Assembly (NCBI GenBank): GCA_937914965.1 | Contig: CALGIY010000280.1 | Span: 1-13,014 of the forward strand | Length of the DNA stretch: 13,014 bases | Direction of reading: 5' to 3' | Source of the DNA: an uncultured Thermoanaerobacteraceae bacterium | Lineage (GTDB): Bacteria > Bacillota > DSM-12270 > Thermacetogeniales > Thermacetogeniaceae | Shown: positions 2,158 through 12,613 of the stretch, piece by piece | Layout of the letters: every line of letters begins with the position of its first letter | How positions within the stretch are numbered: the stretch's first letter is position 1 | Notes under the pieces: generated by a model | What the model saw: the letters and a program-made list of their open reading frames with translations, nothing else | Database searches by the model: none | Told to the model about the DNA's origin: nothing | Translations under genes and position numbers: made by a program

Positions 2158-4791
2158 CTACCGCTGGGCTGCTTGTTGGGTTGATTCCTTCTCTTGAGTC
2201 TGTTCTGCTGAACCCAAATACTCTAAGACCGGTTCAAGCTCTTCATAGAAGACAACCACCACATCACCCGTTTTGGCCTGCTCTAAAGCTTCCTTCAAAG
2301 CCTCTTCAGTACCGGGGATGATGTGTAGTTCAGCACTAGACAGCCCGGCCCGTCGGGCTCCGGTGTAGAGTAGTTTAGATGTCTTCCCGGGGGAGCGGCC
2401 CCGAAGATCCCGGTCCTCTCTGATGTAGAGTTCATCAAAACCCGCCCCAGCCACCTCACCGGCATGGATGATCTGATCATCGCGCCGGTCTCCCGGCACC
2501 GCAATAATTCCGATCAGCCGGCGCGGATGCAGGGTCCTGGCAAATTCAGAGATTCTCTGGAAGGCAGGGGCATTGTGACCGTAGTCGACGATCACAGTAA
2601 CCCTTCCCACCCGCCGGATCATCAAACGGCCCGGGTTGTCCTCATGAGCAGCGCCGAAGGTGCGCAGTCCGCGCTTGATTAAGGCAGGGGGAAGCCCACA
2701 GGCGTAAGCTGCGGCAGCTGCCGCCAGGGCGTTTTCCAGGTTATGAACCGCCCGGCCGTTCATGCCTGACTTAATGGACTTCAGCTTCATCAAAGACACC
2801 GCATCCACACCGCAGCCAAAGCAGACAACCCCTTTCTTGACGAAAACTGCGCTGCCTCCTGCTCCCAGGTGGCGGCGCACCAAAACATTATTTTCATGAA
2901 TGCTGAAGTAAATCACCTTTCCCCGGGAAATACCGGCCAGCCGCGGGGCAAAGGGGTCATCAGCATTGAGAACAACAGAACCATCCTTCTTCACTGCCTC
3001 TACCACTAAAGACTTCACCCAGAATAGATCCTCCAGGGTTTCGATACCATCCTGCCCCAGGTGGTCCGAACTGATATTCGTAACCACTGCTACATCGGCA
3101 CAGTCGTAACCCAGGCCGCCCCGCAGGATTCCTCCCCTGGCGGTTTCCAGGACAGCAATTTCTACATCTGAGTCCTTCAAAACCATGCGGGCACTGTCGG
3201 GCCCAGTGGTATCCCCTTCGAGAAGACATTTATTGTTGACAAAAACCCCTCCGGTGGTGGTCATCCCCACAGTAAGTGACTGCTGTCGAAAAAGATGGCC
3301 GAGAATCCGGGTGGTAGTAGTTTTCCCATTGGTTCCGGTAACCGAGATCACCGGAATGCTCACTGGACTGTCGGGAGGAAATAGGTAATCTACAAACTCC
3401 TGCCCTACATCCCGGGATGCTCCCTGGTCGGGATGGAGGTGCATGCGAAACCCCGGAGCGGCGTTTACTTCGATAATGGCCCCCTTTCCATGAAGGGGTA
3501 CGGTGATATCTGGTGCCACCAGGTCAATCCCGGCAACATCGAGGTCCAGGATCCCTGCTGCTCGTACTGCTAATGATGCGTTCTCCGAGTGCACCTGGCC
3601 GGTAACATCAACAGCGCTGCCCCCGGTGCTTAAATTAGCATTCCGGCGTAATAAAACCTTAACCCCTGGTTCTAGGCAGCTCTCCGGATAATACCCCTGC
3701 CTTTTCAGCTCCAGAACTGAAATCGGGTCAATCTCCAGCTTTGTTAAAGGGAGGTCATGGCCATTGCCCCTTCTGGGGTCCTGGTTGGCGAGCTCCACGA
3801 GTTCGGTAATTGTATGGGTCCCATCCCCGACCACAGCAGCCGGAAAGCGCTCAGCTGCAGCCACCATCCTTCCCCCGACCACCAACAAGCGGTAATGCCG
3901 GCCCTCAACATGCTTCTCCACCAGCACCTCTTTGTCATAATTTCGTGCCAGTCTGAAAGCAGCCTCAACCTCACAGTCGCTTGTTAGATCTAGAAGAACT
4001 CCCTTCCCCTGGTTGCCGCGGCAGGGCTTAATCACCACTGGGAAACCCAATTCCCTGGCCGCAGTTAGAGCAGCCTTCCTGGTTGTCACAACCAGCCCCG
4101 GCGTCACCGGTAGGCCAAACGCTGCAAGCAGTCGCCTAGCAGACTCCTTATGGCATGCCAAGTCCACTGCCAGGGCAGATGTATGGGATGTAATAGTAGC
4201 CTGAATCCTCTTCTGACAGCTGCCATACCCTAATTGGTAGAGGGCATCCTCACCCAGGGAAAGTACCGGGATCCCTCTTTCACGGCAAGCCCTAAGGATA
4301 CTATCTGTACTGGGCCCGGGGCGTGTGGCAGCACCCAGGTCTTTGAGTTCGGCAGCTGCATCCTGAACAGGAAAAGTGCGCCCCTTGATCAGAGCTGTTA
4401 CCAGAGACACCGCTGTCTTTAGCGCAGCAATCCCTAGTTCAGAAGTACCGTATTCGATAATGATATCCCAGGTACCAACACTATCCCCCCGTACTGTTTT
4501 CCCGTAATGTACAGGAAAACCGGCCTCTACTTGAAGCTCCAAAGCAGTATGTTCAACAACATGCCCCAGGTAAGTTCCCTCCTGCAGGCGCTCGACAAAA
4601 CCCCCTGGGTAACCGAGACCGCAGGTGTGTTCTTTAAGCCCTGGCAGCGCCTCGATAAGAGCTTCAGGGAAACCAGTCAGCTTTTCTGTGGTAACCCTCT
4701 CTTTTGGGGCCAAATAAATCCGGGTCTCCAGGACAGAAGAGTGGCTCCAAACATTCCGGCCCTCGATGACCCGGGTCTTTAATATTTTCAC
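2158..4791 (-). CDS. cphA: Cyanophycin synthetase (CphA)
   Basis: CphA makes cyanophycin, a poly-L-Asp backbone with Arg (sometimes Lys) side chains, by alternating ATP-dependent additions in the cytoplasm. I start it at GTG 4791, because AAGGAGG lies 9 nt upstream and the product begins VKILKTRVIEGRNVWSHSS, the typical CphA N-terminus. That gives 877 aa, normal for the family; the frame is open 12 codons further. An N-terminal domain (1-160) includes GHVVEHTALELQ (76-87), which resembles the His/Glu site described for primer-making cleavage in some CphA1 enzymes. An ATP-grasp domain (about 213-475) includes PVVIKPCRGNQGKGV and IIEVNAAPGFRMH. A Mur-ligase-like domain (about 478-877) has the P-loop TGTNGKTTTT (485-494), ETARGGILRGGLGYD and DYGHNAPA. 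It lies 69 bp downstream of cphB and is surely the same operon. No domain is broken. Confidence 0.96.
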   Translation of the reverse strand: MKILKTRVIEGRNVWSHSSVLETRIYLAPKERVTTEKLTGFPEALIEALPGLKEHTCGLGYPGGFVERLQEGTYLGHVVEHTALELQVEAGFPVHYGKTVRGDSVGTWDIIIEYGTSELGIAALKTAVSLVTALIKGRTFPVQDAAAELKDLGAATRPGPSTDSILRACRERGIPVLSLGEDALYQLGYGSCQKRIQATITSHTSALAVDLACHKESARRLLAAFGLPVTPGLVVTTRKAALTAARELGFPVVIKPCRGNQGKGVLLDLTSDCEVEAAFRLARNYDKEVLVEKHVEGRHYRLLVVGGRMVAAAERFPAAVVGDGTHTITELVELANQDPRRGNGHDLPLTKLEIDPISVLELKRQGYYPESCLEPGVKVLLRRNANLSTGGSAVDVTGQVHSENASLAVRAAGILDLDVAGIDLVAPDITVPLHGKGAIIEVNAAPGFRMHLHPDQGASRDVGQEFVDYLFPPDSPVSIPVISVTGTNGKTTTTRILGHLFRQQSLTVGMTTTGGVFVNNKCLLEGDTTGPDSARMVLKDSDVEIAVLETARGGILRGGLGYDCADVAVVTNISSDHLGQDGIETLEDLFWVKSLVVEAVKKDGSVVLNADDPFAPRLAGISRGKVIYFSIHENNVLVRRHLGAGGSAVFVKKGVVCFGCGVDAVSLMKLKSIKSGMNGRAVHNLENALAAAAAAYACGLPPALIKRGLRTFGAAHEDNPGRLMIRRVGRVTVIVDYGHNAPAFQRISEFARTLHPRRLIGIIAVPGDRRDDQIIHAGEVAGAGFDELYIREDRDLRGRSPGKTSKLLYTGARRAGLSSAELHIIPGTEEALKEALEQAKTGDVVVVFYEELEPVLEYLGSAEQTQEKESTQQAAQR

Positions 4792-4860
4792 AATAAGAAA
4801 CCTCCTTGAACAGGAATAAGGAATCATGCCCCTTCCTATTTTTACTAACTATGACCTGGA

Positions 4861-5679
4861 TTATACGCTCCGTGAAGGGGTTCTACTCTTCATATCAAAC
4901 CTGTAGCCTGCAGGGAGGATATGCAGCATAACATAAGTCAAGGCCAGGGGTTCGCTAGGGCCTGTTGCAGAAATATTTGTTTCTCGGATCTTTTTACCAT
5001 CGATGACCGTGACTGCATGTGACCCCACCACTTCAAAGGTGCCGTCCGGTGCCACGATGATGGCTGTATCCTCGTCGATCCCCACGCCGAGAACATAGGG
5101 ATACTGAGCGACCGCAGTAAGCAGTCGTCCCAGCCTCCCCCTCTGAGCAAAGTGCTGGTCCACAACCACCTCCCGCAAGAGCCCCATACCAGGGGCCATT
5201 TGGACGGTGTTTTTGCGGGGCGGCTCGGTTTCTTCTCCCTCCACGATCATGGTTTCGCTCATCACAGATGCCCCGGCACTGGTTCCCGCAATGACAGCGC
5301 CCTTGCGGTATGCTGCATGCAAGGCGTCATCAACCTGCGTACCCCCCAGGATGCTGGTCAAGCGGAGTTGATCTCCTCCGGTAAAAAATATCCCAGTGGC
5401 CTGCATCAATAGATCCCTCGCCCCAGAACAACCAGCATCTTGGCGTGTATTCACATTTAAGACAGCGACCTCCTGCACCCCCAGGTTCTGAAAGAGGGCA
5501 CGGTAAACATCCCCGGTTTCCTGTGGCTCAGATGTTGCCGCAGTGACCACCACCAGTCTCCCCTTGTTCCCACCGGACAGTGCTGTAAACCTCTTTAAAA
5601 TCTTGCAGTCATGCTCTTTGTCCTCAGCTCCCCCAATAATCACCAGGGTCCCTAGTACCTTATTAGAAATCTTCGACAC
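4861..5679 (-). CDS. cphB: Cyanophycinase (CphB)
   Basis: CphB is a serine exopeptidase of family S51 that releases beta-Asp-Arg dipeptides from cyanophycin. The 272-aa product has LVIIGGAEDKEHDCKIL (12-28), FFTGGDQLRLT (98-108), the nucleophile elbow GTSAGA with S134, DQHFAQRGR with H176 (174-182), and GIDEDTA with E203. S134, H176 and E203 lie two residues beyond the Ser132/His174/Glu201 triad that I recall for Synechocystis CphB, which supports an active enzyme. The start is GTG 5679. An in-frame TAG two codons upstream rules out a longer protein, and the ribosome binding site (AGGGG directly before the GTG) is poorly spaced, so a slightly later start is possible. The gene leads the cphB-cphA operon and diverges from the ZIP transporter. 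Confidence 0.94.
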   Translation of the reverse strand: MSKISNKVLGTLVIIGGAEDKEHDCKILKRFTALSGGNKGRLVVVTAATSEPQETGDVYRALFQNLGVQEVAVLNVNTRQDAGCSGARDLLMQATGIFFTGGDQLRLTSILGGTQVDDALHAAYRKGAVIAGTSAGASVMSETMIVEGEETEPPRKNTVQMAPGMGLLREVVVDQHFAQRGRLGRLLTAVAQYPYVLGVGIDEDTAIIVAPDGTFEVVGSHAVTVIDGKKIRETNISATGPSEPLALTYVMLHILPAGYRFDMKSRTPSRSV

Positions 5680-7281: not shown

Positions 7282-8823
7282 TTAAGGATCACAGGGGATG
7301 ATGAGCACTGAGCCGATTTGGAGATTATTAGGATCAACACCGGGATTGAGAGCAAGTATGCTGTCAACACTAACATTGTACCGGATAGACAGTAGATAGA
7401 TCGTGTCCCCGGCCTGCACCACATGCTCAAAGGGGCAGGGTGGCGGTCCAGGGGGTACCGGCGGTACCGGTGCAATTTCCTCACAGATGACCACATAGAT
7501 CTGGAGTGTCTCCACAACCCGAGCTGTTAGATTGAGAACAATCTCCAGGACAGCCTTCCTTCTGCTGTCTGCTGGCCGGCCGGCCACATGCTCCACCGCG
7601 GTCTGCACGCTGACACTCATATCAGGCATAGCACCGGGGATTGGGATAAAGTTGCGAAACTTGATCACTGTGTCCAGATGGTGTACAGACTGATCGGGCA
7701 TATCGCTTACATAGAGCACCTGCGCCTTGATTTTCCCACTCACGATCACCTTATCCTTGATGATCACTATGTCTTCAGGCAAGACCTCAACCTTGTGGAC
7801 CTTCACATCCAGCACCTTGGTAACACCTGGTTTTTCCATGGGGACCATTATTTCATCCCTGACATTAATCTGTGTGTGGTCCTCACCCACTACATTGTCA
7901 ACCCTGAGCAGATCCCGGGTCGTTTCAACGCCGACCAGGTCAACGACAACATCGAGTTCTCTCGGTTCAGTGACTTTGGCCACCTGATCCAGGAGTACTT
8001 CTACATCCACAGTATGGGGGTTCACCACATCGAAGCTGACATGAGTAATGGTTTCTTCCACAGTTACATTCATTCCCGGTTCAGCGCCAAAAACCTCAAT
8101 AAACTGGGTGAAGTGAAGCACCTGGTGCATATGGTGGACGGGTTGGGTTGACAGAGCGGCTACATAGATGATTTGCAGAGTAATGTACCCTTCAACGATT
8201 ACCTTGTTCTGAATGACCTTTTTATCTGTAATGGTTACACTGGCATCTACATCCAAAACCTTTTCCACCGGTGGTTTCTCATGTGGCACCTTGAATCTCC
8301 CGGAAACCATCGCCTGGGCCATGCCTTCAGCGACTACTTCCTCCACTCGAAGGTGCTCTGTGATAGCCTCTACCCCAGGCGGCGGCTCCACCATTAATGT
8401 TATTTCCTCTACAGTTGTTACTTTAGCAAATATCTGGAGAACAGCAGTAACCTCAAAAAAGCATCGTTTTCCAGCCTTAACCTTTCCTTGGATATCCTCA
8501 ACCTTTTCATTGACCCGTGCTGTCATACCCGGTTCCGCCCCAGGTATCTCTACAAACTGGGTAAAGTCTAAACGTGCATGGGTATGATGAACCGGCTGCC
8601 CGGGGCAGTCAGCCACATAAACCACCTGCAGGTTAAGGTAACCATCCACGATTACCTTGTTCTTGATCACTTCTACCTTGGTTACCTTGACAGTTTTGTC
8701 TACCGAGATGATTTTTTCAATGCCCGGCTTAGGCTCCGGCACCCGGAATTCACCCTGTACTACAGCCTGCTTTGTCATTTCTCCGACTACATGATCAAGC
8801 TTTAATGTCTCACAGCGGACCAT
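7282..8823 (-). CDS. SPOCS (DUF3794) x3 - LysM spore-envelope protein, SipL-like
   Basis: This 513-aa protein has three tandem DUF3794/SPOCS domains (about 5-145, 155-295 and 303-445) and a C-terminal LysM (465-511). Each repeat shows VPxxKPxxxKVLDV, then NKVIVxGY-like strands, then HHxxxxxxFxxFIxIPGAxPxM. A proline linker APVPPVPPGPPPCP (451-464) precedes the LysM, which has HVVQAGDTIYLLSIRYNVSVDSILALNPG. This layout matches Clostridioides difficile SipL, where SPOCS domains plus a LysM anchor coat assembly through SpoIVA, and more distantly SpoVID of Bacillus. It is therefore probably a mother-cell coat morphogenetic protein. I chose ATG 8823 because AAGGAGGGAGAAGAG precedes it; the frame is open 9 codons further, but that would place the start within the ribosome binding site. 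A sporulation-type promoter lies 37 nt upstream and a strong terminator follows. Clostridia often carry several DUF3794 proteins, so SipL orthology is not certain. Confidence 0.9.
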   Translation of the reverse strand: MVRCETLKLDHVVGEMTKQAVVQGEFRVPEPKPGIEKIISVDKTVKVTKVEVIKNKVIVDGYLNLQVVYVADCPGQPVHHTHARLDFTQFVEIPGAEPGMTARVNEKVEDIQGKVKAGKRCFFEVTAVLQIFAKVTTVEEITLMVEPPPGVEAITEHLRVEEVVAEGMAQAMVSGRFKVPHEKPPVEKVLDVDASVTITDKKVIQNKVIVEGYITLQIIYVAALSTQPVHHMHQVLHFTQFIEVFGAEPGMNVTVEETITHVSFDVVNPHTVDVEVLLDQVAKVTEPRELDVVVDLVGVETTRDLLRVDNVVGEDHTQINVRDEIMVPMEKPGVTKVLDVKVHKVEVLPEDIVIIKDKVIVSGKIKAQVLYVSDMPDQSVHHLDTVIKFRNFIPIPGAMPDMSVSVQTAVEHVAGRPADSRRKAVLEIVLNLTARVVETLQIYVVICEEIAPVPPVPPGPPPCPFEHVVQAGDTIYLLSIRYNVSVDSILALNPGVDPNNLQIGSVLIIPCDP

Positions 8824-8860
8824 CTCTTCTCCCTCCTTTTCCAGGCACAATTTTCTGTAA

Positions 8861-9879: not shown

Positions 9880-10179
9880 CTACCCCTTTTGACTCTCACT
9901 AGCAGTCAACCCGTCCTCATAGCCCTTCTGGTACCCCTGGTCCCAACCCTGGTCAAAGATCACCTCCGCATCCTTTTTCCCCGCCGTGTACCCTGCTTCC
10001 TGGCCCTCTAGATAACCGTGTTCCCGCCCCTCTTTCCGGCCCCTCTTCATTCCTTCACTAGAGCCAACTTGATACCCCTCGGCAAAGCCATCCTTGCGAC
10101 CGTCCAGGTAACCGCGGTCATAGCCACATCCATAAACTTGCTCTAAATTACGCTGTTTCTCCTCCCTGGCTTTGCCCAT
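9880..10179 (-). CDS. Gly-X3 tetrad repeat protein (deca-GX3 / Yae1-like)
   Basis: This 99-aa protein is dominated by a tetrapeptide repeat. From ATG 10179, glycines occur at residues 19, 23, 27 and so on to 67, thirteen in exact 4-residue register. A short break (DAEVIFDQ) follows, then four more at 78, 82, 86 and 90. The intervening residues are mostly Tyr, Arg, Lys, Glu and Asp. This is the pattern of the deca-GX3 motif of eukaryotic Yae1/Lto1 (adaptors for Fe-S insertion into Rli1); Yae1_N-like hits occur in bacterial proteins whose function is unknown. A glycine on one face of a helix suggests tight helix packing. ATG 10179 has AAGGGGG 8 nt upstream. ATG 10218 (13 residues longer, weaker site, 15 bp after the previous stop) is the alternative. 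The gene is probably cotranscribed with the 139-aa gene. The short acidic tail has no motif. Confidence 0.8.
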   Translation of the reverse strand: MGKAREEKQRNLEQVYGCGYDRGYLDGRKDGFAEGYQVGSSEGMKRGRKEGREHGYLEGQEAGYTAGKKDAEVIFDQGWDQGYQKGYEDGLTASESQKG

Positions 10180-10233
10180 TTCAAAACCCCCTTCATCCCC
10201 ATCAAACCATTCCAACATTTTAGAACCTAATGC

Positions 10234-10653
10234 CTAGAAATTTCCCCTCTTCTGACGCCTCTCAGAAGTGTCTGGTTTCTGTCTACCGCTTTCCCCTGCT
10301 TCCGGTTCTTCTTGTTTCGCCGCTTCTCCTGCAAGGGACAGTAGTGTAGAGAGCATCTGGGGATTCAGCTTCTTTCCCGACTTTTGAAGTAAACTGGTCA
10401 GCATTTCGGGCCCCGGCTTCTGACCCTGGGACAGCATACCAGTAAGCATCCCAGCAATATCTTTACCGCCGGACCCTGTTCCCTTGACCACCTGTTCCTG
10501 TGCCAGGTTCACAATGTTCATCAAGGCAAACAAAGAAAGAACAGCTACCGTTCCCGGGAGGTCCTCCTGCTTTGCATCAAGATTCTGTAATGTCTGGGCC
10601 ATCAGAGAAAATAGGCTTACATCCTGGCCTGAAAAATCCTGTTCTCGCTCCAA
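10234..10653 (-). CDS. Hypothetical 139-aa protein with repeated MLTSLL helices
   Basis: I do not recognise this protein. It starts at TTG 10653, set by AAGGAGG 7 nt upstream; an ATG at 10660 sits directly on the ribosome binding site and is in another frame. Residues 10-55 form an amphipathic/hydrophobic helical region (VSLFSLMAQTLQNLD, TVAVLSLFALMNIVNLAQEQ). Residues 64-110 hold an internal near-repeat, GMLTGMLSQGQKPG, PEMLTSLLQKSGKK and PQMLSTLLSLAGEA. The tail (112-139) is highly charged, rich in Glu, then Arg and Lys. There is no signal peptide and no clear transmembrane span. It lies between the YbaB-like gene (122-bp gap with its own candidate sporulation-type promoter) and the GX3 gene. 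The context suggests a spore-related role; the sequence alone does not give one. Confidence 0.8.
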   Translation of the reverse strand: MEREQDFSGQDVSLFSLMAQTLQNLDAKQEDLPGTVAVLSLFALMNIVNLAQEQVVKGTGSGGKDIAGMLTGMLSQGQKPGPEMLTSLLQKSGKKLNPQMLSTLLSLAGEAAKQEEPEAGESGRQKPDTSERRQKRGNF

Positions 10654-10775: not shown

Positions 10776-11072
10776 TCAGTACAGGGAAACACCTCCCATA
10801 AGTTTCCCTGCTTCGGTTTTAAGGAGTTCGCTCCCTTTTTGCAGTGCATCATCAACAGCTTCGGCCACCAGTTGCTCCAGGTGAGAAACATTTTTCACAG
10901 AGCGCATATTGATCTTCACACCCAGCACCTGGAGTTTACCACCTATAACCACGCAAACGGCACCATTTTCGCTGCTGCCCTCTACTTTCTTGCCTTCAAG
11001 CTGCTTTTCCAGCCGGGTAATTATCGATTTAAGAAATTGCTGTGTCAGGCCGTAGGTTTCAGGAACAGGCAT
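10776..11072 (-). CDS. Divergent YbaB/EbfC family protein
   Basis: This 98-aa protein has the YbaB layout: an N-terminal helix (about 8-28, LTQQFLKSIITRLEKQLEGK), a three-strand sheet with GAVCVVIGGKLQVLGVKIN (37-55), and a C-terminal helix HLEQLVAEAVDDALQKGSELLKTEAGKLMGG (64-94) resembling the family's LxxLVxxAVNDALxKAxE block. YbaB/EbfC proteins are small dimeric DNA-binding, nucleoid-associated proteins. The usual YbaB gene sits between dnaX and recR, so this copy in a spore-gene cluster is a paralogue. The N-terminal Q/M-rich segment of typical YbaB is weakly kept. ATG 11072 is chosen because of a G-rich site (GAGGGGGGGTGGGG) just upstream; the frame is open 6 codons further. It lies 32 bp after the YDE paralogue stop, so it is likely cotranscribed. 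The fold call is by motif only. Confidence 0.72.
   Translation of the reverse strand: MPVPETYGLTQQFLKSIITRLEKQLEGKKVEGSSENGAVCVVIGGKLQVLGVKINMRSVKNVSHLEQLVAEAVDDALQKGSELLKTEAGKLMGGVSLY
10782..10810 (-). other. 9-bp inverted repeat across the end of the YbaB-like gene
   Basis: CAGGGAAAC (10782-10790) and GTTTCCCTG (10802-10810) are perfect arms around an 11-base loop. They overlap the last codons of the YbaB-like gene and end 4 bp before its stop codon. No T-run follows on the minus strand, so it is not a standard terminator; it may stabilise the mRNA 3' end. Confidence 0.4.
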
Positions 11073-11104: not shown

Positions 11105-11395
11105 TTATTTCTCTTGCTCTGGGTTTCCAGAAAAGTCCGAGAGAAGCAGTAGAATCAAGATTAAAAAAAGTGTAAAGGGGTTCGCCTTCCTCTTACCCCC
11201 ATCATTGAAAAACTTCCGGGGATGCTCAGGCATATAATCCTGCAGTCCTTTTAAAATCTCCCGGGCAGAATCACTGGAAAGCAAATCTAAGAACCCGTCA
11301 AGAAGATCAGCGATCCTGTTCCCCTGGGACCCCAGATACGGACGAAAACTATTAACTACCTGCAGTACTTGTTCATCATATAGGACACCTGCCAT
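11105..11395 (-). CDS. YDE/RPYLG family protein, paralogue 2, with micropeptide-like C-terminal helix
   Basis: I do not recognise this family. The 96-aa product begins MAGVLYDEQVLQVVNSFRPY and continues LGSQGNRIADLLDGFLDLL. Over residues 1-52 it aligns without gaps to the gene at 11982-12329, with 26 identities. Residues 53-71 are a basic linker. Residues 72-88 (NPFTLFLILILLLLSDF) form a hydrophobic segment that closely matches the C-termini of the three neighbouring micropeptides. It may therefore be a cytoplasmic helical domain tethered to membrane by that segment. ATG 11395 is set by AAAGGGGGGAG upstream; the frame is open 13 codons further. Micropeptide 1 lies 77 bp upstream across a hairpin, and the YbaB-like gene lies 32 bp downstream. 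Function is unknown; a spore-membrane role is inferred from context. Confidence 0.78.
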   Translation of the reverse strand: MAGVLYDEQVLQVVNSFRPYLGSQGNRIADLLDGFLDLLSSDSAREILKGLQDYMPEHPRKFFNDGGKRKANPFTLFLILILLLLSDFSGNPEQEK

Positions 11396-11426
11396 CGGTC
11401 TCCCCCCTTTAAAGCTTTTAGAAAGA

Positions 11427-11456
11427 GAGGCCACCCCGCACTTACGGTGTGGCCTC
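11427..11456 (-). terminator. Hairpin between micropeptide 1 and YDE paralogue 2 (possible attenuator)
   Basis: GAGGCCAC and GTGGCCTC pair, then one mismatch, then CCG/CGG, with a 6-base loop. On the minus strand it is followed only by TCTTTC, a weak U-tract. It lies 16 bp after the micropeptide 1 stop and about 30 bp before the next start. Partial termination would make much more micropeptide than downstream protein. Confidence 0.6.
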
Positions 11457-11472
11457 CACAGTAAACCTGGTC

Positions 11473-11574
11473 TTATGGATCGCCGAAGAAGAGCAGAATG
11501 AGGATTAAGAATAGTATTAAAGCCCAGTTCTTAACACATCCGCCGCCACCGAAACCGAATCCTTTAGATTCCAT
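11473..11574 (-). CDS. Membrane micropeptide 1 (33 aa)
   Basis: This is a 33-codon gene too short for standard gene calling. The peptide has a glycine-rich head (MESKGFGFGGGGCVKN) and a hydrophobic tail (WALILFLILILLFFGDP), so one transmembrane helix with an Asp-Pro end is likely. ATG 11574 follows GGAGGGATATTG. It resembles the small glycine-rich YjcZ-type sporulation peptides of Firmicutes in size and layout, although I cannot show homology. Against micropeptide 2, 15 of the last 17 residues are identical, yet 12 of those 15 codons differ synonymously, so the peptide is under protein-level selection. It has its own promoter candidate (11635-11662) and is followed by a hairpin and YDE paralogue 2. 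Cys13 is a possible disulfide or metal site. Confidence 0.85.
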   Translation of the reverse strand: MESKGFGFGGGGCVKNWALILFLILILLFFGDP

Positions 11575-11634
11575 CAATATCCCTCCTCTATGTTCTGGGT
11601 TTAGATCCTACCGGACCATTTTATTTTCCTACAC

Positions 11635-11662
11635 CATAATATGTTGTTTAAGGGAATGAGTT
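11635..11662 (-). promoter_or_regulatory. Candidate SigK/SigE-type promoter of micropeptide 1
   Basis: On the minus strand AAC (11660-11662), 16 nt, then CATATTATG (11635-11643), continuing GGT. The 11-base CATATTATGGT is identical to the element before micropeptide 3. It lies 60 nt from ATG 11574. Compared with SigK CATANNNTA, only the last base deviates. Confidence 0.5.
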
Positions 11663-11757
11663 ACATTGTCCAGGGTATTTTTGGCGCTGCCCCACTTGTT
11701 AATGAGGATAAGAAAAAGATATCTAGATACCCGGAAGGAGCCGAATACCCTTTTCCT

Positions 11758-11868
11758 TTAGTTGTCACCAAAAAACAGTAGAATCAGAATCAAGAAGAGA
11801 ATGAACGCCCAGCTTCCCCCAAATAGCCCTCCTAGGCCACCAAAACCCAATCCTTTTTCTTCTGCCAT
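11758..11868 (-). CDS. Membrane micropeptide 2 (36 aa)
   Basis: This 36-aa peptide has a short charged start (MAEEKG), a glycine-rich stretch (LGFGGLGGLFGGS) and a hydrophobic tail (WAFILFLILILLFFGDN) nearly identical to that of micropeptide 1. The start at ATG 11868 follows AAGGAGGGGATCAAGG, a strong ribosome binding site. Its own promoter candidate lies at 11951-11979. Unlike the other two micropeptides it is followed by another micropeptide, not by a YDE gene, so it appears to be a solo copy. I see no clear terminator in the 183 bp that follow, so read-through into micropeptide 1 is possible. Such peptides are usually inserted in a membrane; a role in the forespore or spore membrane is inferred from context only. 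Confidence 0.85.
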   Translation of the reverse strand: MAEEKGLGFGGLGGLFGGSWAFILFLILILLFFGDN

Positions 11869-11950
11869 CCTTGATCCCCTCCTTATACATACAAGATGGT
11901 ATTTATACCGGGATAACCATGTTATTTTCCTTTTCCTTGCATACCCCTCT

Positions 11951-11979
11951 CATAGTATGTGGATACCTATCATTGTGTT
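11951..11979 (-). promoter_or_regulatory. Candidate SigK/SigE-type promoter of micropeptide 2
   Basis: On the minus strand AAC (11977-11979), 17 nt, then CATACTATG (11951-11959). It lies 83 nt from ATG 11868 and begins 2 bp after the stop of YDE paralogue 1. The -10 matches the other micropeptide promoters except for one pyrimidine change. Confidence 0.42.
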
Positions 11980-11981
11980 AC

Positions 11982-12329
11982 CTATTCCTGTTGATCTCCG
12001 GTGTTTTCTGCTTTTGTGTCTTCCTCTGGTTCCGGCCCAACTAGCATATCTAAACCCGGGGCATCAGCCAGAAACAACAGGGCCTGCAGCAGGAAGAGTG
12101 ATGATGGGCTGAACACCTTTTTGGGTTCACTTGGTAGTGCTAGTGCCTTAAAGTTCTCTCCCGGCCCCAGGATCTGCAGAGCATCCTGCGTCTTTCTGGC
12201 CGGCTCACTGTGAAGCAGTTCCAGTAAGCTTTCCAGGGCAATAAGGCACCCATTTCCCCGGGGGCCCAGGTATGGGCGAAGACTTTGGAATACTTGAAGT
12301 GCGCTTTCATCATAGGAAATGCCGGCCAC
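11982..12329 (-). CDS. YDE/RPYLG family protein, paralogue 1
   Basis: This 115-aa unrecognised protein is paralogous to the gene at 11105-11395. It opens MAGISYDESALQVFQSLRPY and continues LGPRGNGCLIALESLLELL, with 26 of the first 52 residues identical to paralogue 2. Residues 53-74 are a variable linker. Residues 75-90 (SPSSLFLLQALLFLAD) form a shorter, weaker hydrophobic segment at the place where paralogue 2 has its micropeptide-like helix. An acidic tail (98-115) follows. The start is GTG 12329, because AAAGGGGGGAG lies upstream exactly as in paralogue 2; the frame is open 19 codons further. It lies 97 bp after micropeptide 3 across a 14-bp hairpin. Same inferred context and same unknown function as paralogue 2; the weaker helix suggests divergence after duplication. 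Confidence 0.75.
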   Translation of the reverse strand: MAGISYDESALQVFQSLRPYLGPRGNGCLIALESLLELLHSEPARKTQDALQILGPGENFKALALPSEPKKVFSPSSLFLLQALLFLADAPGLDMLVGPEPEEDTKAENTGDQQE

Positions 12330-12360
12330 CAGTACTCCCCCCTTTATTTTTTTTGTAAAG

Positions 12361-12415
12361 ACGGCCGCCGGGCAACTGGCAAGCAAGTTGAAGTCAGAGA
12401 CTGCCCGACAGCCGC
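12361..12415 (-). terminator. 14-bp hairpin between micropeptide 3 and YDE paralogue 1 (possible attenuator)
   Basis: On the minus strand GCGGCTGTCGGGCA (12402-12415) pairs with TGCCCGGCGGCCGT (12361-12374) through 14 positions, including three G·U pairs, with a 27-base loop. Only CTTTA follows, so it is not a full intrinsic terminator. It holds the same place as the hairpin before the other YDE gene, although the two sequences differ. Confidence 0.5.
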
Positions 12416-12426
12416 ACTATCCCCCA

Positions 12427-12513
12427 TTAAGGATCCAAAAACAGTATGATCAGGATTAGAAAAAAAATAAAAATGAACCCACCACCAAAGAATCCCTTAC
12501 CACAGCCTCCCAT
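12427..12513 (-). CDS. Membrane micropeptide 3 (28 aa)
   Basis: This 28-aa peptide has a Gly/Cys head (MGGCGKGFFGGG) and a hydrophobic tail (FIFIFFLILIILFLDP). It keeps the FLILI core and the Asp-Pro end of micropeptide 1. It is more diverged than micropeptides 1 and 2 but has the same plan. ATG 12513 follows AAAGGAGGTCAGTTAATT, a near-perfect ribosome binding site, which strongly supports translation. A promoter candidate sits at 12586-12613. The gene is followed by a hairpin and YDE paralogue 1, giving the same cassette order as micropeptide 1 with YDE paralogue 2. Homology to the YjcZ-type group is likely from layout but not demonstrated. Confidence 0.82.
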   Translation of the reverse strand: MGGCGKGFFGGGFIFIFFLILIILFLDP

Positions 12514-12585: not shown

Positions 12586-12613
12586 CATAATATGGTCTGC
12601 AGCTGAAAGTGTT
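12586..12613 (-). promoter_or_regulatory. Candidate SigK/SigE-type promoter of micropeptide 3
   Basis: On the minus strand AAC (12611-12613), 16 nt, then CATATTATGGT, the same element and spacing as before micropeptide 1. The -10 lies within the 13-bp palindrome ACCATAATATGGT (12584-12596). The -35 begins 3 bp after the stop of the patatin gene, and no terminator lies between them. Confidence 0.5.

Follow-up and report, generated by a model that had tools for sequence, protein, structure and literature searches.

Hydrophobic micropeptides with sigma-K-like promoters and a neighbouring protein that carries their hydrophobic segment: a candidate sporulation module in the Thermacetogenium phaeum family and other Bacillota

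We describe a conserved group of genes in which small hydrophobic peptides are encoded next to a protein, YDE1, that carries the peptides' own hydrophobic segment at its C terminus; elsewhere this tail is a separate neighbouring gene, and a YbaB-like gene and an unnamed gene, NP, recur beside YDE. The window, that is, the whole stretch of 13,014 nucleotides that was analysed, is a 13-kb contig (C280); the draft genome to which it belongs is 2.0 Mb in size, 92% complete and from a family including Thermacetogenium phaeum. As judged by sequence comparison, the genes appear conserved and translated, the segment is shared and occurs in fused and split forms, the peptides have a common promoter pattern, the gene order is kept between genomes, and the group is associated with SpoIVA. 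We give about even chances to the proposal that these genes form a late-sporulation module of the mother cell, controlled by sigma-K, whose peptides and tail-bearing YDE protein would likely reside in the outer forespore membrane.

All genes of the cassettes lie on the minus strand. The end of a patatin-like gene is followed by the 28-aa peptide MGGCGKGFFGGGFIFIFFLILIILFLDP (12427..12513), YDE2 (11982..12329; 115 aa, GTG start, with the diverged tail SLFLLQALLFLADAP), a 36-aa hydrophobic peptide (11758..11868), the 33-aa peptide MESKGFGFGGGGCVKNWALILFLILILLFFGDP (11473..11574, its ATG at 11574 and its stop codon ending at 11473), the YDE2 paralogue YDE1 (11105..11395; 96 aa, ATG start, with a helical RPYLG domain and a C-terminal tail common to the peptides) and the YbaB-like gene (10776..11072), and then by NP (10234..10653; 139 aa), a GY-repeat protein, a CAP protein, a SipL-domain/LysM protein and SpoIIR. 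The sequence-only reading had described two cassettes of the same order with a third micropeptide, having its own promoter, between them. The duplicated layout is real, as its coordinates, promoter words and ribosome-binding repeat were borne out and relatives contain these cassettes too; the third micropeptide is the 36-aa peptide, with a CATACTAT site upstream, and our recount agreed with the 26 identical residues reported in the first 52 of YDE1 and YDE2 (BLASTP E=9e-11). A 27-nt repeat (78%) around the ribosome-binding site AAAGGGGGGAG lies 5' of both YDE genes; in the spacer before YDE2 (12330..12426) this site is accompanied by a GC-rich hairpin.

The C-terminal sequences are KANPFTLFLILILLLLSD in YDE1 and WALILFLILILLFFGDP, WAFILFLILILLFFGDN and FIFIFFLILIILFLDP in the peptides. 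When profiles were compared with hhalign, the YDE1 tail NPFTLFLILILLLLSD matched the peptide segment WAFILFLILILLFFGD at 95.8% (E=7e-9), and a DNA repeat search recovered the tail and peptide stretch as a four-copy family in the window. In the RPYLG motif P19, and in the tail six residues, were invariant across an alignment of 22 YDE sequences, and the tail segment was nearly constant while the soluble part varied. The protein had been proposed to be soluble or tethered; YDE1 is not simply soluble, as its C terminus holds the peptides' hydrophobic segment. The charges flanking the YDE tail (38 K/R and 46 D/E on the N side, 26 and 53 on the C side, counted in 21 of the 22 sequences) indicated no clear orientation. 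At two loci (L107 and L111), a 48- or 53-aa NPYTLFLILILLI protein is encoded 5' of the N-domain protein, with stand-alone peptides nearby; the names attached to such split tail and N-domain proteins among the best-sharing candidates were Tepidanaerobacteraceae and Thermosediminibacter. A profile comparison showed the fused and the split N-domains to be related (96.6%), and a stand-alone peptide or tail gene was present at the locus in 14 of the 18 genomes with only split N-domains. That the tail and the YDE domain are joined in some genomes but encoded separately elsewhere argues for a joint function. YDE proteins matched 0 families in Pfam and NCBIfam at E values up to 1, and a Foldseek search with the YDE model, which is of moderate quality (pLDDT 74.4, pTM 0.40), matched no PDB chain. 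The split N-domain proteins of L103-L114 contain a KINxEALxxLL motif, and this motif also scores weakly with the NP profile, which suggests that N-domain proteins and NP may share building blocks.

Substitutions in the peptide genes follow the pattern of translated sequence held by purifying selection. When 12 core codons were compared among 67 peptides from the fetched loci, synonymous pairs made up 68.6% of the codon pairs that differed, compared with 26.2% of random single changes, and there were 978 second-position versus 15,923 third-position differences, in both cases among pairs that are not independent. (The 79 peptides yielded 74 upstream regions after removal of short regions and of any with more than 75% identity, and 67 of these were used in the codon count and 65 in the charge count.) The window peptides matched no model in Pfam or NCBIfam; Pfam matches at E values up to 10 were taken as chance. 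By inspection, many peptides have a Gly-rich start followed by one conserved hydrophobic segment; some have no such start. The uninterrupted hydrophobic run has, by our own count, a median of 14 residues (range 12-16), so short that spanning of a membrane is uncertain. K/R and D/E residues numbered 100 and 86 on the N side and 26 and 82 on the C side in 65 peptides, a distribution that fits an N-in/C-out orientation. A scan of the genome contigs keyed to the hydrophobic motif confirmed at least four loci.

Each of the three window peptides is preceded by a sigma-K-like promoter on the minus strand: AC-N16-CATATTAT for the 28-aa peptide (12587..12612) and for the 33-aa peptide (11636..11661), and AC-N17-CATACTAT for the 36-aa peptide (11952..11978). 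The word CATATTATGGT occupies 11643-11633 and 12594-12584, and CATACTAT occupies 11959-11952, each 5' of a peptide. The pattern AC-N16/17-CATAnnnT was found within 200 bases in 42 of the 74 upstream regions, as against a mean of 1.1 (at most 5) in 100 first-order resamplings, and 5 of 74 on the antisense strands. Of 289 further ORFs at these loci, an uncurated, partly redundant set that may contain spurious frames, 30 had the two-part pattern (Fisher P=3e-16); the background is thus higher than the resampling indicates, and the difference is still large. The -10 half alone did not discriminate (46 sense versus 36 antisense of 74). Within 250 bases there were 45 sites, with the consensus GTAACA...CATATTATGG and a median of 62 bases between the site end and the start codon.

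Promoters of sigma-K and sigma-E have their -10 element in common and are told apart by C versus T in the -35 element, according to PMC517825. By that criterion the peptide promoters are of the sigma-K rather than the sigma-E type, because the discriminating base was C in 42 regions and T in 1. Counts of AC, AT, AG and AA were 42, 1, 2 and 20, and we attribute the 20 AA cases to GTAAC having been read one base too soon. We discarded a sigma-E or sigma-G reading, since patterns for these factors matched 0, 0 and 1 of the 74 regions. A sigma-K gene scoring above its family cut-off is present. Both the genes themselves and the promoter pattern are well supported. NP (1 of 28) and YbaB (4 of 30) seldom have a two-part pattern of their own, which is consistent with read-through; the promoter of the 33-aa peptide probably also serves YDE1, YbaB and NP in this manner.

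Between the 33-aa peptide and YDE1 lies a hairpin, AGGCCAC...GTGGCCT, with a weak U-tract (11428..11455, minus strand), whose stem has a single occurrence in the genome. Its sequence is kept in 11 same-family genomes of five genera. An alignment of 11 of the 12 same-family YDE1-type spacers, with L035 left out, had 92.6% of cells pairing, and the pairs hardly vary across the 11 genomes. Compared with resampled sequence, the stability of the spacers gave z values of -1.4 before YDE1 and 0.0 before YDE2, and from -3.0 to 0.0 over 16 spacers. In stability the hairpin-bearing spacers thus do not clearly exceed resampled sequence, a weak point of the original description; the YDE1 hairpin is nevertheless conserved in sequence. 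An Rfam search gave no match apart from one sub-threshold match taken as chance. It is plausible that the YDE1 hairpin acts as a partial terminator favouring the peptide.

YDE1 as the sole query matched 31 of 101 genomes, including 18 of 20 in its own family. In a sample of 398 genomes of the phylum, treated as one draw, the YDE profile matched 89, the peptide profile 95 and SpoIVA 336. Since both the YDE and peptide profiles contain the tail, co-occurrence was assessed with the 60 genomes having the YDE N-domain, and 51 of these also had a peptide (Fisher P=1e-28, kinship ignored); a peptide match was absent in the other 9. SpoIVA was detected in 93 of the 95 peptide genomes and 87 of the 89 YDE genomes, the exceptions (G248 and G294) being only 75% and 61% complete (P=2.6e-6 for peptides, 8.5e-6 for YDE and 0.0016 for the N-domain alone, kinship again ignored). 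The link to sporulation is an association, and a moderate one, because most sampled genomes have SpoIVA anyway. The idea of an unnamed spore-membrane module is upheld as far as the peptide-plus-YDE layout in spore formers is concerned; strict pairing of peptide and YDE is not, as exceptions exist. Protein searches returned 57, at least 20 and at least 88 matches, the last two numbers covering the best-sharing candidates, and the names shown were nearly all "hypothetical protein" from Bacillota, although a few carried out-of-place labels such as "L-arabinose isomerase". Named organisms included Syntrophaceticus schinkii, Thermosediminibacter, Tepidanaerobacter and Thermacetogenium phaeum DSM 12270, a species described as spore-forming in PMC3551663.

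We examined the surroundings of the N-domain in the 58 genomes with fetched loci, a set not identical to the 60 mentioned above. NP, which has no family match, was the commonest YDE neighbour, being found within 3 kb in 40 genomes; YbaB was found in 26 and a stand-alone peptide in 28, or 31 when separate tails in the locus are included. None of peptide, tail, NP and YbaB was nearby in 13. The YbaB-like gene 3' of YDE1 passes the PF02575 cut-off (55.8 versus 25.5 bits) and falls under the TIGR00103 equivalog cut-off (34.3 versus 49.45 bits); it thus differs from described YbaB/EbfC nucleoid-associated proteins in failing TIGR00103 and in sitting in a sporulation-linked gene group. The structure model of NP was too poor for use (pLDDT 51.7). 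Within the family, the complete order patatin - YbaB - NP - GY - CAP - SipL/LysM - SpoIIR was present at 5 of 18 loci, and a total of 9 keep it as far as SipL/LysM; several of the remainder end at contig edges. Among the exceptions, L043 has patatin and YbaB only, and L045 and L046 have none of the neighbours from patatin to SpoIIR. No recognised peptide was found within 3 kb of YDE in 5 of the 18 same-family genomes, two of which have a divergent, Trp-rich small hydrophobic peptide in place of the usual one before YDE (L045, 6433-6546; L046, 6704-6811). The SipL/SPOCS and LysM domain protein of the window (7282-8850) is likely a coat-morphogenesis protein. The low-complexity GY/EG-repeat protein (9880-10218) has weak Yae1/FliH-like matches and adjoins NP at most of the longer loci within the family.

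In the mechanism that we propose, the module would be expressed late in the mother cell under sigma-K, and the peptides and tail-bearing YDE would insert side by side through the common FxLFLILILLxxxD segment, most likely into the outer forespore membrane. The helical YDE domain would face the mother-cell side, on which the coat is built, and the YbaB-like and NP proteins would act with YDE. The hairpin between the peptide and YDE genes would lower downstream expression, so that several peptides might be made per YDE protein. We infer the membrane, the orientation, the stoichiometry or abundance and any coat role of the peptides and YDE from the patterns described above. The presence of the SipL-domain/LysM protein and SpoIIR in the window speaks for this mechanism; the diverged tail of YDE2, the short hydrophobic run and the 13 genomes with no partners nearby speak against it. 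Clostridial coats are not known to contain many of the Bacillus components, and their replacements are poorly known. More tentatively, the module could be an undescribed clostridial mother-cell scaffold in which tail-bearing YDE proteins sit within a lawn of matching sigma-K peptides on the outer forespore membrane and, with the YbaB-like and NP proteins, provide a foundation of the coat beside SpoIVA. The closest parallel in working would be the SpoVM-SpoIVA coat basement, where a very small membrane peptide made by the mother cell accompanies a larger protein at the outer forespore membrane. The module differs in that SpoVM is amphipathic and lies on the surface, and in that SpoIVA itself is also present in its genomes.

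The main rival is a role in a coat layer without membrane insertion, in which the sigma-K peptides would pack as a water-repellent protein layer of the coat, integument or exosporium and YDE proteins would be larger building blocks. The promoter evidence applies equally to this reading, and the short hydrophobic run, the Gly-rich start of many peptides and the nearby SipL/LysM protein are in its favour. The little-changed tail beside a variable soluble part, however, suits insertion or specific pairing, and the acidic bias at the C-terminal end of the peptides also argues against a packed layer, which we regard as doubtful.

A role in germination or at the inner spore membrane, where the module would assist in retaining or freeing cortex-lytic enzymes, is unlikely. 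It would account for the PF07486 (SleB-like) cell-wall hydrolase and YpeB that adjoin the module in L106 and L107 (Thermosediminibacter and Tepidanaerobacteraceae), and by eye also in L108, L111-L113 and L116 of the same two families. This neighbourhood was seen in those two families, however, and the promoters fit sigma-K, with sigma-G patterns matching 0-1 of 74 regions; SleB and YpeB are forespore-made in Bacillus. A trypsin-like peptidase adjoins the module in L103 (1446-2471, Trypsin_2 just under the cut-off), and by eye also in L104, L105, L109, L110 and L036.

The nearest described relatives of the peptides in layout and control are the YjcZ-type peptides of Bacilli (TIGR01732, tiny_TM_bacill), which are likewise very small, with a Gly-rich start and one hydrophobic segment that starts FAL or FAF and ends near Gly, the same layout as in the G155 peptides FALLVVLFILLIIVG. 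In B. subtilis, yjcZ belongs to the sigma-K regulon, as given in PMC517825; control is alike in the module peptides, as read from the promoter pattern alone. If the peptides were YjcZ members, YDE would be an incidental neighbour, a reading that we find very unlikely. The family model misses the window peptides, with 0 matches over cut-off and two weak matches outside the window in the genome, and exceeded its cut-off in just 1 of 149 phylum genomes. The peptide profile matched TIGR01732 at 31% (E=5e-4, one comparison) versus 95.8% for the YDE tail; the peptides have the core FLILILL and not VVLFILLIIVG, end in an acidic stretch, and are linked to a protein with the same segment; and peptide and N-domain co-occur. 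On both model and profile comparison, the window peptides fall outside this family. A toxin-antitoxin-like or regulatory pair, with the peptide as a membrane toxin restrained by YDE or the hairpin RNA, would explain small hydrophobic peptides adjoining a stable hairpin, but is highly improbable, because clusters contain several peptides whose own sigma-K-like promoters lie on the strand that encodes YDE, the Rfam search was negative and the place among sporulation genes is fixed.

Our search of the open-licence literature brought up no description of YDE or NP, nor of any connection between them and the peptides. The Moorella spore proteome does not bear on the module, because the available portion of PMC8745062 gives just orthologues of known spore proteins, and the available portion of PMC3533761 contains no mention of YjcZ or YbaB that we could find. 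Gene callers and proteomics likely miss the peptides, since they are mostly 25-36 aa and no family model matched them. As a conserved, unannotated module with sigma-K-like promoters, it offers concrete, testable genes in cultured Thermacetogenium, Syntrophaceticus and Thermosediminibacter. Elsewhere in the window, a large ligase-like ORF (2158-5679), which by eye resembles a cyanophycin synthetase, adjoins an S51 peptidase, and the two are possibly a pair for cyanophycin synthesis and degradation.
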